Assembly (NCBI GenBank): GCA_021604765.1
Contig: BQJP01000021.1
Span: 1 to 45,362 of the forward strand
From: Thermodesulfobacteriota bacterium
Lineage (GTDB): Bacteria > Desulfobacterota_D > UBA1144 > Nemesobacterales > UBA2774
Direction of reading: 5' to 3'
DNA length: 45,362 bases
Shown: in pieces, positions 12,948-17,545 of the stretch
Numbering within the stretch: position 1 is the stretch's first letter
Layout: each line of letters begins with the position of its first letter
Notes under the pieces: generated by a model
Databases searched by the model: none
Seen by the model: only the letters and a program-made list of their open reading frames with translations
What the model was told of the DNA's origin: nothing
Position numbers and translations under genes: made by a program

Positions 12948-13000
12948 TTGACAGAAAAAAAATATCCTGTATTATGATATTGAGAATGAAATTCAATATT
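12948..13000 (+). promoter_or_regulatory. Promoter and Fur-like operator for the small CxxC protein gene
   Basis: TTGACA (12948-12953), 16 bases, TATTAT (12970-12975). Immediately downstream is a perfect 7-bp inverted repeat, ATATTGA (12977-12983) and TCAATAT (12993-12999), around GAATGAAAT. The same sequence recurs, with few changes, in the promoter at 13425-13496. The position just after the minus-10 is typical of a repressor site. Confidence 0.6.
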
Positions 13001-13067: not shown

Positions 13068-13298
13068 ATGGGATTTTTATGTAAAGATGACGAACCTATT
13101 ACTCTTTCATCCTCAAATATTGGTAAAGTAAGTCAGTGTGCTGACTGTGAATCATATCATGTAACAGTGGGTAATATCACAATGAGAATGGAAAGAAAAC
13201 ATTTACTAAGCCTTACTCAGATGATAATTGATGCGCTAGAGGTTAAATCAGAACCTGAATGGCATTACCAAGATAAAGATATTAGAAATCAAGCATGA
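13068..13298 (+). CDS. Small CxxC protein of unknown function
   Basis: A 76-residue cytoplasmic-looking protein with a strong AAGGAGG ribosome site at 13053-13059. It has Cys5 and a Cys24-x2-Cys27 pair in the sequence GKVSQCADCESYHVTVGNITMRM. I recall a similar pattern (C-x2-C then GN and a hydrophobic helix) in small uncharacterised proteins of other phyla but cannot name the family with certainty. Three cysteines could bind iron or zinc; this is inference. It is transcribed from a promoter with a Fur-like operator and is followed by a long-loop hairpin terminator. Confidence 0.75.
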   Translation: MGFLCKDDEPITLSSSNIGKVSQCADCESYHVTVGNITMRMERKHLLSLTQMIIDALEVKSEPEWHYQDKDIRNQA

Positions 13299-13404: not shown

Positions 13405-13424
13405 TAAGACAATTTGTACATAAT

Positions 13425-13496
13425 GAATATGAATTTCATTTTCTTGACAAAGATCGTAGGGCTGGTAGATTGAATTTGAAAACGAATATCAATATT
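13425..13496 (+). promoter_or_regulatory. Porin promoter flanked by two Fur-like boxes
   Basis: The core is TTGACA (13444-13449), 16 bases, and TAGATT (13466-13471) preceded by TGG, an extended minus-10. Box 1, GAATATGAATTTCATTTTC (13425-13443), abuts the minus-35 and matches the classical Fur consensus GATAATGATAATCATTATC at 14 of 19 positions. Box 2, GAAAACGAATATCAATATT (13478-13496), matches the 12982-13000 operator at 15 of 19. The two boxes are 53 bases apart, start to start, and bracket the core promoter. Confidence 0.65.
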
Positions 13497-13518: not shown

Positions 13519-15102
13519 ATGAGAAGTTTAATCTCAGGTATAGAATTAAAATTTATGAATAATGTTATTATTTCGTTTTTCGTACTCTTATTAGCTGTTT
13601 CTTCAATAGGCGCTATTTCGCAAGAGCTTAATCAAAATCAAAAAGAATTCTCGGATTCTATTGATACTTATAACAAGATCAGGGCACAGCAAATAGCTAA
13701 GCAGGCAAAATTCGAAGAACAACAAAAGGCACAGAAAATAGAAGTAGCCCAGAGGCTTAGTGATGACGAGACTGAGACCCAGGATGAGCGAATAGAACAA
13801 TTAGAAAAAAGACTACAGAGCGTTACTGAGGAGCTTCAAAGTCTTAAGAGCTCGGGAATGACGGATGACAGACTGCAGTCCATCGAGAATAGCATAAGTG
13901 TATTAGCTGAAGAGATAGATAATATTAAATCAGCTTCAGTCGTTGCCGATCCTACATATGAGCAGGTCTATGGAGCTGCCCCAGCGGCGTCAAAGATCTA
14001 TCTTAAGGACAAAGGGCTGTCTATCGGCGGCTACGGAGAGCTTCTTGTGGGTCAAGTTAGACAGGATGAAGATAATATAGTAGACGCGCAAAGAGTCGTA
14101 TTATATTTCGGGTATAAATTTACGGACAGAATAATCTTTAACTCTGAAATTGAGTTTGAGCATGGAACAACTTCTTCAAATCAGGACGATCGCTCAGGCT
14201 CAGTATCAGCCGAATTTGCGCTCCTTGATTTTCTCCTATGGCCCGAGCTAAATCTAAGGGGCGGTTTACTCTTAGCTCCTTTTGGAATAGTAAACGAAAT
14301 ACATGAGCCAACCACTTTCTTTGGAGTATTTAGACCTTCAGTTGAAAGGTTCATAATACCTACAACCTGGAGAGAGAATGGGCTAGGTATATTCGGTGAC
14401 TTTGATTTAGGATCCGCGGGTACTATAAATTACAGAGCTTATGCTATGAACAGTTTTGACGCCAGAGGTTTTAGGGCTCAAAACAACAGAAACCTTCGAA
14501 TAAAAGGTAACCGTGCGCTATTTAATGATGTAGCATTTGTGAGCAGGGTTGAGTATCAGCCACTTCCTTATGTAGCAATCGGGGGTTCAATATTTCTTGG
14601 AAACACAGGACAAGATCAAACAATTGATGATCCTGAATCACCATTTGACGGTGATAAATTCAACGGTTTCTTCCAAATGTATGAAGCTGACGTGCAGGTT
14701 CAGTACAGTGGTTTCGAAGGAAGAGCACTGTTTACCTACACAAGCTTGGATGACGTAGCTAGAATAAATGCTCTAAACGATTTTGAGGGTGATGATTCTG
14801 TAGGAAGCGAGCAGTGGGGTTATTATGTCGTAGGGGCGTATAATGTGCTGACACTAACCGATTTCTCGAGTCAGTATGCTCAATACTTAGCGCCATTTGT
14901 GAGGTGGGAACAGTATGATACCCAAGCAAAAGTTCCTTCAGGATTTTTTAGGAATCCGGCAAATGACAGAAGCGACCTAACTATAGGACTTAACTACAAA
15001 CCAATTCCTAATGTAGTAGTTAAGGCTGAATATCAATATCTCGATAACGAGGCTAATGAATCTGAGAACCAATTTAATTTTGGACTTGGATATGTGTTTT
15101 AA
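13519..15102 (+). CDS. Outer-membrane beta-barrel porin with N-terminal coiled coil
   Basis: The 527-residue product has a signal peptide; the hydrophobic core is VIISFFVLLLAVSSIG with cleavage probable after Ala-Ile-Ser near residue 34. A second ATG 12 codons in would also serve, but only the first has a GGGGG ribosome site. Residues of about 75-140 form a heptad-rich coiled coil (RIEQLEKRLQSVTEELQSLK). The rest alternates amphipathic strands beginning ISGGYGE-like (SIGGYGELLVGQ, about 170) and ending in GLGYVF with a terminal Phe, the BamA recognition mark. It resembles phosphate-selective or metal-associated porins. Two Fur-like boxes flank its promoter. Confidence 0.85.
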   Translation: MRSLISGIELKFMNNVIISFFVLLLAVSSIGAISQELNQNQKEFSDSIDTYNKIRAQQIAKQAKFEEQQKAQKIEVAQRLSDDETETQDERIEQLEKRLQSVTEELQSLKSSGMTDDRLQSIENSISVLAEEIDNIKSASVVADPTYEQVYGAAPAASKIYLKDKGLSIGGYGELLVGQVRQDEDNIVDAQRVVLYFGYKFTDRIIFNSEIEFEHGTTSSNQDDRSGSVSAEFALLDFLLWPELNLRGGLLLAPFGIVNEIHEPTTFFGVFRPSVERFIIPTTWRENGLGIFGDFDLGSAGTINYRAYAMNSFDARGFRAQNNRNLRIKGNRALFNDVAFVSRVEYQPLPYVAIGGSIFLGNTGQDQTIDDPESPFDGDKFNGFFQMYEADVQVQYSGFEGRALFTYTSLDDVARINALNDFEGDDSVGSEQWGYYVVGAYNVLTLTDFSSQYAQYLAPFVRWEQYDTQAKVPSGFFRNPANDRSDLTIGLNYKPIPNVVVKAEYQYLDNEANESENQFNFGLGYVF

Positions 15103-15129
15103 GTCTGGTTTAATATAAGACAGAATAAG

Positions 15130-15159
15130 GGCGTAGAAACTTGTTTTCTGCGCCTTTTC
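15130..15159 (+). terminator. Hairpin terminator or attenuator between porin and FMN-binding genes
   Basis: GGCGTAGAAA (15130-15139) pairs with TTTCTGCGCC (15145-15154), one G-T pair, five-base loop, then TTTTCT. The next gene starts only 25 bases later and no promoter is obvious in that space, so partial read-through is likely and would lower downstream expression. Confidence 0.75.
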
Positions 15160-15183
15160 TATATATAAAAGGCAGAGTTAATT

Positions 15184-15738
15184 ATGGCTAAGAAGTATAT
15201 AATTTTTATATTGCTAACGGTTCTAACCCTTGGATTTGTTTCTTATGCGGAAGCCAAAGTTTTTATGAAAAGGGATGAAGCATTAAAGACAGCTTTTCCT
15301 GAGGCGGTTGAGATTGAAAAGAATGAAATATTTCTATCTTCAGACCAGTCCAAATCTATAGAGTCTATGTCCCGTGCAAAAAATGAATCAAAACTCTATA
15401 TTGTTTATGAGGCGAAAAATGGGGATAAAACCTTAGGTTATGCTATAATAGACACCCATAGCTTAAGGACTAAGACCGAAACTGTGATGTTTGTGATCAA
15501 TCCTGACGGTAGCTTGAGACAGACAGAGGTGCTTGCATTTTTTGAACCTCCGGACTATCAAGCGGGGGGTAATTGGATTGAGTTGTTTGAAGGAAAAACT
15601 TCTGAAGACAGTTTGAAAGTGGGAAAAGATATTCCAAACATTACAGGGGCTACTATTACTGCAAATTCTTTATCTCAAGCGACTAGGAGAGTTCTTGCAG
15701 TGTTCAAAGTAGCGTCAGATGACGGACAGTTAAAATAG
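15184..15738 (+). CDS. Exported FMN-binding domain protein (probable flavoprotein)
   Basis: The 184-residue product has a signal peptide (IIFILLTVLTLGFVS, cleavage probable after Ala-Glu-Ala at 22-24). The C-terminal FMN-binding domain ends with Asp149 and the Ile-Thr-Gly-Ala-Thr motif at 153-157. Family knowledge (NqrC, RnfG and related proteins) makes Thr157 the expected site of covalent FMN attachment by ApbE, but no apbE is in the window. The central GYAIIDTHSLRTKTETVMFVINPDG is the usual strand pair. The gene sits between a porin and a four-helix membrane protein and probably carries electrons in the periplasm. Confidence 0.8.
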   Translation: MAKKYIIFILLTVLTLGFVSYAEAKVFMKRDEALKTAFPEAVEIEKNEIFLSSDQSKSIESMSRAKNESKLYIVYEAKNGDKTLGYAIIDTHSLRTKTETVMFVINPDGSLRQTEVLAFFEPPDYQAGGNWIELFEGKTSEDSLKVGKDIPNITGATITANSLSQATRRVLAVFKVASDDGQLK

Positions 15739-15753
15739 TTAAGGGACATAACG

Positions 15754-16248
15754 TTGCGCTTCTTTATCTCAGCAGACATCAAAAAAAATACACTTCTTAA
15801 ATTGATTGTAGCATTTACCGTGCTATTTTTCTTGTTCCTTTGGATTACTAACCTCTTGTTATATCTACAAATTGGTTTTTCTTACGAATCTGTAGTTCAG
15901 TATTACCTGGGTTCAGAAGAAGATTTCAGGCCTGCTCGTAGTTATCTTGGAATGCTTGAGGAAGCACATTTCCACTTCTTCGCAATGGCAATAATTCTTG
16001 TTACCTTAAATCATTTGATACTATTTACTAAGATCTCAAATTTCTGGAAGCTGGTCCTGATTTTATTATCATATTTGTCTGCCTTAGGTGATATAGCTGG
16101 TGGATGGCTGATTCGTTATGTAAGCCCTGAGTTTGCTTACTTAAAGATAGCATCCTTAATAGGTTTGCAGGTATCTCTCGCAGTGCTTATGATAATTGTG
16201 ATTTGGTTTCTATATGGTTACAGCGATAAAAAGACAAGCTACGGATAA
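15754..16248 (+). CDS. Four-helix inner-membrane protein with conserved-looking histidines
   Basis: The 164-residue product has four predicted membrane helices at about 14-40, 72-91, 97-119 and 129-153. Helix 2 contains His72, His74 and His87 (EEAHFHFF and NHL), which could ligate haem or a metal; this is inference. The start is TTG with AAGGGA at 15740-15745; no ATG is near enough. It lies 15 bases after the FMN-binding gene, so the two are co-transcribed. A membrane electron donor or receiver for the flavoprotein would fit, but the family is not recognised. Confidence 0.7.
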   Translation: MRFFISADIKKNTLLKLIVAFTVLFFLFLWITNLLLYLQIGFSYESVVQYYLGSEEDFRPARSYLGMLEEAHFHFFAMAIILVTLNHLILFTKISNFWKLVLILLSYLSALGDIAGGWLIRYVSPEFAYLKIASLIGLQVSLAVLMIIVIWFLYGYSDKKTSYG

Positions 16249-16258
16249 TAAATTGCAA

Positions 16259-17545
16259 CTAGCTTAACTTTAACTTCTTTCTTAACTTGCTGACATCATA
16301 ATACGGCTCGCCACGTTTCCTCGCCTGTTCATATATAGCCTCGAGCTCATCTATAACCAAACTTAGCTTTGCCCTTCCTTCTTTTGATTTCATGGCTTCT
16401 TTGGGCGAAATCTTTCCTAGCACTTCAAGAGGTGTTGTTACCCATTTATCATAATGATTATCTAATTCGTTATCGAGTTCTTTCTTGTTTTTGACCCCAA
16501 GCGGCAACTTCTTTAATTTCTTCGGTTCGTTTTGAGATTTGTCTATAAATGTATCAAGTTCTTTTATTGTATCTTTTATGTGGGTAATAGAATCTTTGCA
16601 TTGAGTCTCGATTTTTGCTTTTGCCAGAGCGAGCATATCAATTGAGTAGCACTCTATCCGTAGTTTGTCTTTTTCAATTTCTAAACTACCGGTAATTGTG
16701 TTTCTTCCAATCTTTTCCCACGAAAATGCTCTCAATTCTTCAGTCTTATCACTAAGCTCTTTTAATGACTTGATTCCCTCCAGCTTCTTAATGCATTTCT
16801 CATATTCTTTTACAGAATAATCAGCGATTGCTATGACGAATTCATGTCCCTCAGGGGTTACAAAATGTGGATTATTAGCGGTTTCCTCAACATAAGCGCC
16901 AATTTGAAAGCCCCAGTCTTTTAAATAGTTAAACTTTGTTTTTTGCTTGCCATATAGTTTTTTGTATTCCTTAAATTCTTTATCGAAAAACTCGGTTATT
17001 AAATTCTTAAAAGGGGGAGGGTAGAGTGAAACTATTCCGGAGAAGTAATATTGGTTTCCAATTTTAATTGGTCTTGCGGCGATAATATCTGATTTTTTAA
17101 TCTGTTTAGTGGATGCTTTATCCAGAACTTCAAGTGAGTTTCCAGAGAATATATCTTTCATTACACACTTTTCGCCAGGTACTACTTCTAGAACTTCAAA
17201 AAAACTGTGAATACTTTTTATCCAGTCTTTTATTAATATCTTTTCCGAAGCTGATAAATTTGATCCCTCTTCTGAATAGAATCTCTCTGCTACTCTTTCC
17301 TCTGAGTCAATAAGTTTGTAGTCATATAAGAACCAGTCATAGAATTTTTCAAAAGTTAGCTCGTCTATCTCATCTTCATCGAGATCTTCACTTGTGAAGT
17401 CGGGGTCATTCTTCCATATATAGAAAGCTTCTCCAAGCTGGGACTGGATCTCCGGTCTCTCGGAGTAGTCCACTAGCTTTTTGCGAAGCTCTTTGTCGGT
17501 TTGATCTATCTTATATTCGTTAATGTCTACAACTGATTCGGTCAT
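16259..17545 (-). CDS. Unrecognised 428-residue acidic and lysine-rich protein
   Basis: A soluble protein with no signal peptide or membrane segment. The N-terminal half is acidic and helical (SEDLDEDEIDELTFEKFYDWFLYDY). A central beta-rich part contains NTITGSLEIEKDKLRIECYS followed by a long helix. The C-terminal part includes WVTTPLEVLGKISPKEAMKSKEG (about 370-392), resembling a segment seen in SEC-C-associated proteins, though no SEC-C cysteine motif is present. It converges on the four-helix gene with a 10-base gap and has no functional context. No function is proposed. Confidence 0.75.
   Translation of the reverse strand: MTESVVDINEYKIDQTDKELRKKLVDYSERPEIQSQLGEAFYIWKNDPDFTSEDLDEDEIDELTFEKFYDWFLYDYKLIDSEERVAERFYSEEGSNLSASEKILIKDWIKSIHSFFEVLEVVPGEKCVMKDIFSGNSLEVLDKASTKQIKKSDIIAARPIKIGNQYYFSGIVSLYPPPFKNLITEFFDKEFKEYKKLYGKQKTKFNYLKDWGFQIGAYVEETANNPHFVTPEGHEFVIAIADYSVKEYEKCIKKLEGIKSLKELSDKTEELRAFSWEKIGRNTITGSLEIEKDKLRIECYSIDMLALAKAKIETQCKDSITHIKDTIKELDTFIDKSQNEPKKLKKLPLGVKNKKELDNELDNHYDKWVTTPLEVLGKISPKEAMKSKEGRAKLSLVIDELEAIYEQARKRGEPYYDVSKLRKKLKLS

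Follow-up and report, generated by a model that had tools for sequence, protein, structure and literature searches.

The threonine of the GAT motif in NqrC/RnfG-like domains is covalently flavinylated by ApbE. Several types of flavinylated system pair a membrane donor with an ApbE-dependent periplasmic flavoprotein. These include the PepSY, MsrQ, NapH, DsbD and RNF/NQR-like systems (PMC8238504) and the DUF4405/FezC cytochromes (PMC11334425). PepSY-type systems have been tied to Fur and iron assimilation, and DUF4198 has been reported with PepSY iron clusters in the same flavinylation survey (PMC8238504). This survey also describes P19-FTR1 clusters, in which an FMN_bind protein lies beside an FTR1 permease, again in iron assimilation. 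The motif recognised by ApbE is D-x-x-[ST]-G-A-[ST]; replacement of the Asp reportedly has a minor effect, whereas replacement of the Thr by Ala abolishes flavinylation (PMC12052999). The inner-membrane ferric (siderophore) reductases FrcB and FoxB are built of four helices and are described without a separate flavoprotein (review PMC8891985). At the outer membrane, OmpC and OmpF carry iron in E. coli when the TonB routes are blocked (PMC7315122).

A further component of interest is Psp, a porin regarded as hypothetical and Fur-regulated in Geobacter metallireducens and Desulfuromonas, where its gene, psp, is preceded by two tandem Fur boxes (PMC545781). In the accessible portions of this 2004 account, the delta-proteobacterial Fur consensus is derived as WTGAAAATNATTTTCAW and the predicted box before the G. 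metallireducens gene is ATGAAtATGAaTTTCAa. The same portions mention that Aquifex aeolicus and uncultured bacteria have homologues and that the porin weakly resembles PF07396, and they name the porin without a flavoprotein, a four-helix protein or ApbE.

Here we describe a three-gene locus, referred to below as the trio, which encodes a porin, an exported FMN-binding protein and a four-helix membrane protein and looks like an undescribed way to reduce and take up iron. Flavinylated iron-assimilating systems are already known; what the trio adds is a membrane protein family that could not be placed, together with the Fur-box link. The locus lies in a 45,362-nucleotide stretch of DNA (the window) which is part of a 3.42 Mb genome; among named relatives, the closest are MAGs of Candidatus Dadabacteria. 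The three ORFs were found in the order and at the places given in the original prediction (Table 1), with 15 bases between the stop of the FMN gene and the start of the four-helix gene. That prediction also did not recognise the trio as a described system. As a system it has no description in the literature searched, a scope which largely left out subscription journals; the porin alone, however, was probably predicted to be Fur-regulated in 2004 (PMC545781).

Table 1. Coordinates of the trio, its upstream neighbour and the associated Fur-box-like sites in the window
Feature	Position	Strand	Description
Fur-box-like site TGAGAATGAAATTCA	12981..12995	+	Precedes DUF6686-like gene
DUF6686-like gene	13068..13298	+	76 aa, Cys pairs; upstream neighbour of trio
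Fur-box-like site TGAATATGAATTTCA	13424..13438	+	10/12 consensus positions; tandem, 53 bases upstream of the 13477 site
Fur-box-like site TGAAAACGAATATCA	13477..13491	+	10/12 consensus positions; 42 bases before porin ATG
Porin gene	13519..15102	+	527 aa ORF; outer-membrane porin, N-terminal helical extension and OmpC/OmpF-like barrel
FMN protein gene	15184..15738	+	184 aa ORF; exported, FMN_bind (RnfG/NqrC-like)
Four-helix protein gene	15754..16248	+	164 aa ORF, TTG start; inner-membrane, unnamed family

The product of the DUF6686-like gene matches PF20391 at 4.7e-5, slightly below the Pfam cut-off. Its homologues adjoin the trio in L032, L035, L037, L043 and L047 (two copies in the last), and it may be an accessory to the trio. 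On the other side, and outside the trio, a convergent gene for a 428-aa protein (16259-17545, minus strand) is retained 3′ of the trio in several relatives. In L043 and L047 this protein starts with a CxCGSG...CC segment resembling a SEC-C motif.

The porin, FMN and four-helix genes occur in identical order in 53/53 loci that were first found via the four-helix gene, mostly in Dadabacteria, and since this order recurs in all of them the trio is not a chance association. A lack of co-occurrence in other genomes had been set beforehand as grounds for rejecting the proposal; the three genes are present together in all 53 loci, and they co-occur across phyla. As a query, the four-helix protein found matches in 41/61 relatives. 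Among named genome contigs it retrieved 23 loci, mostly from Dadabacteria or from records titled Deltaproteobacteria, together with one gammaproteobacterium, one Aquificaceae bacterium and a few others. Profile searches, which include a group of distant paralogues, gave matches in 57/101 genomes from the order of the Aquificaceae bacterium, in 33/369 from the class of the gammaproteobacterium (4/369 at E < 1e-30) and in 26/395 from the phylum of L050 (18/395 at E < 1e-30). All 18 strong matches in this last phylum (L119-L136) have porin and FMN genes adjoining the four-helix gene, and the trio is also present in sampled Gammaproteobacteria (L090, L091 and L148).

In Aquificales, the FMN gene is adjacent to the four-helix gene in 20/20 short loci (L069-L088) and porin matches occur in some only. 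No porin lies within the short flanks of L092 and most Aquificales loci. Where a longer region was read at the same place as L092 (L148) the porin is present; in the 16 kb regions of three Aquificales loci (L163-L165) no recognised porin gene accompanies the flavin and four-helix genes. This patchy distribution means that the flavin/four-helix pair is the core in Aquificales and that the porin is not universal. Pfam scans of the trio neighbours in other phyla revealed no consistent partner besides apbE and FTR1. The porin, FMN and four-helix genes form an operon which is conserved from Dadabacteria to Aquificales.

The FMN protein scores above the Pfam cut-off for FMN_bind PF04205 (25.7 vs 22 bits). 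It shares this domain and the [ST]GAT motif with RnfG and NqrC, but the proteins with which it is partnered do not belong to the Rnf or Nqr complex. Its own identity as such a subunit was rejected: the match to rnfG (TIGR01947; 3e-7, 30.7 bits) is under the cut-off of 102 bits, and it is the sole FMN_bind protein detected in its genome. The Dadabacteria genomes used in the apbE comparison below likewise have at most one FMN_bind match each.

The original prediction included a flavinylation motif running from Asp149 to Ile-Thr-Gly-Ala-Thr157. Its second part, T-G-A-T157, is present in the segment P151-N-I-T-G-A-T157, with T157 as the likely flavinylation site, but Asp149 is not the Asp of the motif. 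Counting back from T157 leads to P151, and D149, two residues too far upstream, occupies a position that is not conserved (of 72 scored family members, 41 have D, 16 have G and 8 have E). The motif Asp position itself is P or Q in most members and D in 1/72 of those scored, and the window protein, with P151, departs from the full D-x-x-[ST]-G-A-[ST] pattern. [ST]-G-A-[ST] is kept in 69/74 family members and decays in one marine lineage (VSNST, KVAGST). Because the canonical Asp is replaced and the motif decays in this lineage, covalent attachment of FMN to T157 by ApbE is likely rather than certain.

The window contains no apbE, as originally noted, and the search for one elsewhere was successful: the genome carries a single copy outside the window. 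In many relatives apbE is found beside the trio, either downstream on the opposite strand (L039-L041, L044-L046, L048 and L049), upstream on the same strand (L043, L047 and L050) or adjoining it (L149-L153). Strong apbE matches occur in 39/41 Dadabacteria genomes with the four-helix gene vs 4/17 without (58 genomes; Fisher 7e-8, a value which ignores relatedness), and one of the four genomes with apbE and no four-helix gene is a case at a contig break. Members of family f8 with small genomes of ~1 Mb (L030 and L031) show a motif reduced to SNST or GST in which Thr157 is retained. This family has a second, weaker apbE-like gene, which was left out of the apbE counts.

A Fur-box filter had been suggested as a check on the trio, and it gave a strong positive result. 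The consensus scored was TGAnAATnATTnTCA, a form chosen after viewing the window and L043 and not fixed in advance. Sites matching at least 11/12 positions were found within -200..+40 in 14/28 operons, whereas the 384,839 bases scored elsewhere contain 7 (nominal P 3e-26, for loci that are not all independent). Perfect 12/12 boxes precede the porin in L035, L037, L042, L043 and L047, and sites of at least 11/12 lie shortly before the DUF6686-like gene in L035 (3200), L037 (3176) and L047 (2067). In the window, where the porin has two 10/12 sites, 3/6 such matches in the whole 45 kb fall at the porin and DUF6686-like promoters. A consensus Fur box is absent from the f6 lineage and from several other operons. 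In L050 both apbE and the trio have a Fur-family gene upstream of them, and five Fur-family genes above cut-off were found in the genome to which the window belongs. On the strength of its promoter boxes, the trio is a predicted member of the Fur regulon.

These boxes also connect the locus with psp. The site at 13424..13438 is identical over 15 bases to the core of the G. metallireducens psp box (PMC545781), and the tandem spacing of 53 bases is common to the window and Desulfuromonas psp (-139 and -86; PMC545781). Given the box identity and spacing, the Aquifex homologues and the weak PF07396 likeness in both (in one alignment member here), the porin is probably Psp, named as Fur-regulated in 2004, although the case is circumstantial (PMC545781).

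Iron-uptake genes are found in the vicinity of the trio in a number of relatives. In L039 and L045 the gene for a cytochrome c-FTR1 permease is found upstream in divergent orientation, and FTR1 was recognised beside the trio by homology in L040, L044, L046, L049 and L052. The genome of the window itself has a cytochrome c-FTR1 gene, preceded at 127 bases by a Fur-like site that matches 11/12 positions, and only one TonB-dependent receptor was found in it (G000:C23:17256-18479). The arrangement in relatives is similar to that of the P19-FTR1 clusters in that an FMN_bind gene lies near an FTR1 gene. It differs in that no P19 match occurs among the scanned neighbour proteins and in that the trio has a separate four-helix gene and a porin.

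Assimilatory ferric reduction fits these observations best because the operon is iron-controlled, linked to ApbE and, in relatives, near an iron permease. We give a probability of roughly 55% to the reading that the trio is a flavin-based ferric reductase, induced by iron starvation, serving iron assimilation and equipped with its own passage through the outer membrane. The porin would admit ferric iron on small ligands into the periplasm, where the FMN protein, flavinylated at Thr157 by ApbE, would reduce Fe(III) to Fe(II). Electrons from the inner-membrane quinol pool would reach the flavin by way of the four-helix protein, which would use H87 near the cytoplasmic face and H72 and H74 near the periplasmic face. 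The iron would then be imported by a permease of the inner membrane whose gene lies elsewhere; the likeliest candidate is the cytochrome c-FTR1 protein of the same genome. Context lends good support to the original idea of a flavin-based envelope redox system, here one that serves iron uptake: the trio co-occurs across phyla, apbE is present and the Fur-box filter was positive. The donor role and cofactor of the four-helix protein, the direction of electron flow, the covalent flavin and the substrate of the porin are predictions.

The main doubt about ferric reduction by the trio is whether the four-helix protein brings electrons or carries iron. The protein has no Pfam family at E < 1 and no NCBIfam match (its relatives L051 and L054 have no Pfam match at 0.5), nor does it have a PDB sequence match at E < 0.8. 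The known electron-donor families (PepSY, DUF4405, MsrQ-like and NapH-like) were excluded on the lack of a Pfam or NCBIfam match. In contrast to the membrane components of the surveyed flavinylated systems, it matches none of their Pfam families, and the trio differs further from those systems in having a porin at the outer membrane (PMC8238504, PMC11334425). The AlphaFold2 model consists of four long helices (pLDDT 81). In Foldseek its best PDB match has an E value of 0.41; the matches listed are all weak, to soluble helical bundles or LTC4 synthase-like proteins, with no redox protein among them, and FoxB is absent from the 50 listed.

The three histidines of the original prediction, H72, H74 and H87, are at the positions given there and are conserved. 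H74 and H87 are present in 32/32 aligned sequences and H72 in 31/32, the exception being the latter half of a fused protein from Aquificales. If the positive-inside rule is applied as usual, the H72/H74 pair would be close to the periplasm and H87 close to the cytoplasm. Any heme or other cofactor of the protein is putative. In Aquificales the four-helix gene is duplicated in tandem or fused, and in 20/20 fusions the first half keeps H72 without H74 and H87 while the second half has kept only H74 and H87. Two subunits that share one site would account for such a division. A symmetric arrangement with bis-His ligation across a homodimer (H74-H74′ and H87-H87′) is disfavoured, since neither residue is present in the first halves of these fusions.

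More distant relatives keep the H-x-H and most have a CXXCH between helix 1 and this motif; in L093, L094 and L097 a His/Met-rich loop takes its place. Proteobacterial and other relatives (L100-L118 and L137-L143), most of which have this CXXCH and whose scanned members match no Pfam family above cut-off, may form an unnamed cytochrome family. The L093-L098 relatives adjoin a weak FMN_bind-like gene without the GAT motif, and L094 also adjoins a DUF4198 gene.

These features bear on the principal rival explanation, in which the four-helix protein is a permease, a dimeric channel for ferrous iron or another metal, where H72, H74, H87, E69 and D113 would bind the metal after its reduction by the flavoprotein. 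Conservation of the His and acidic residues agrees with such a role, and the tandem or fused Aquificales copies with their separated histidines suit a dimer with a shared site. His/Met-rich loops, like that of L093, L094 and L097, are common in metal-handling proteins, and the FTR1 fusions show that permeases can bear a cytochrome domain. We nevertheless consider a channel rather unlikely: the window's own genome and several relatives already have FTR1, the CXXCH of many distant relatives fits electron transfer more simply, and the flavoprotein would be left without a known donor.

The role of the first gene product is approached through its structure. A beta-barrel with a coiled-coil N terminus had been proposed, and this is backed by an AlphaFold2 model of moderate confidence (pLDDT 69), in which a long N-terminal helical stretch (about residues 10-140) is followed by strands, and by a Foldseek match to OmpC/OmpF porins (E 1.5e-12, prob 1.00, TM (target) about 0.65). 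Pfam matches are weak (BBP2 in 15/21 members and Porin_O_P in one), and a HEPTTF...RP..ER segment is strongly conserved in the alignment. A second rival explanation takes the barrel as a TonB-independent receptor for one ferric siderophore, with the FMN and four-helix proteins as a siderophore reductase. The barrel would then work like LbtU or FupA/FslE, a likeness set by description only. Its N-terminal periplasmic part, its barrel of FslE/FupA size and its iron control would be in keeping with this (PMC5378763), as would the conserved segment and the single TonB receptor of the genome, but the top Foldseek matches are general-diffusion porins and we regard a dedicated receptor as improbable. 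A third rival, in which respiratory or extracellular electrons would leave for external acceptors by way of the flavoprotein and porin, as in a flavin analogue of porin-cytochrome conduits of the MtrAB type, is very improbable: the order of membrane protein, periplasmic redox carrier and barrel would suit it and the long N-terminal helices of the modelled barrel could reach into the periplasm, but the Fur boxes indicate iron starvation and not respiration, the barrel matches porins of ordinary OmpC/OmpF size, each protein would have one flavin with no long chain, and FTR1 genes are among the neighbours.

Returning to reductive iron assimilation, we tentatively put forward, at less than even odds, a wider proposal: that the four-helix HxH protein represents a new class of membrane electron-transfer protein, a dimer with an inter-subunit site. 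It would serve either a flavinylated partner and a porin or, in the CXXCH relatives, its own cytochrome c domain, and would underlie TonB-independent, porin-based reductive iron uptake in several phyla. If the reductive iron-assimilation reading is true, the membrane component would lie beyond the classes named in the flavinylation surveys (PMC8238504, PMC11334425). The trio would provide an ApbE client in Dadabacteria and an iron route without a TonB receptor in poorly cultured lineages, and would give the orphan Fur-regulated porin noted in 2004 a setting in which its function may be tested.
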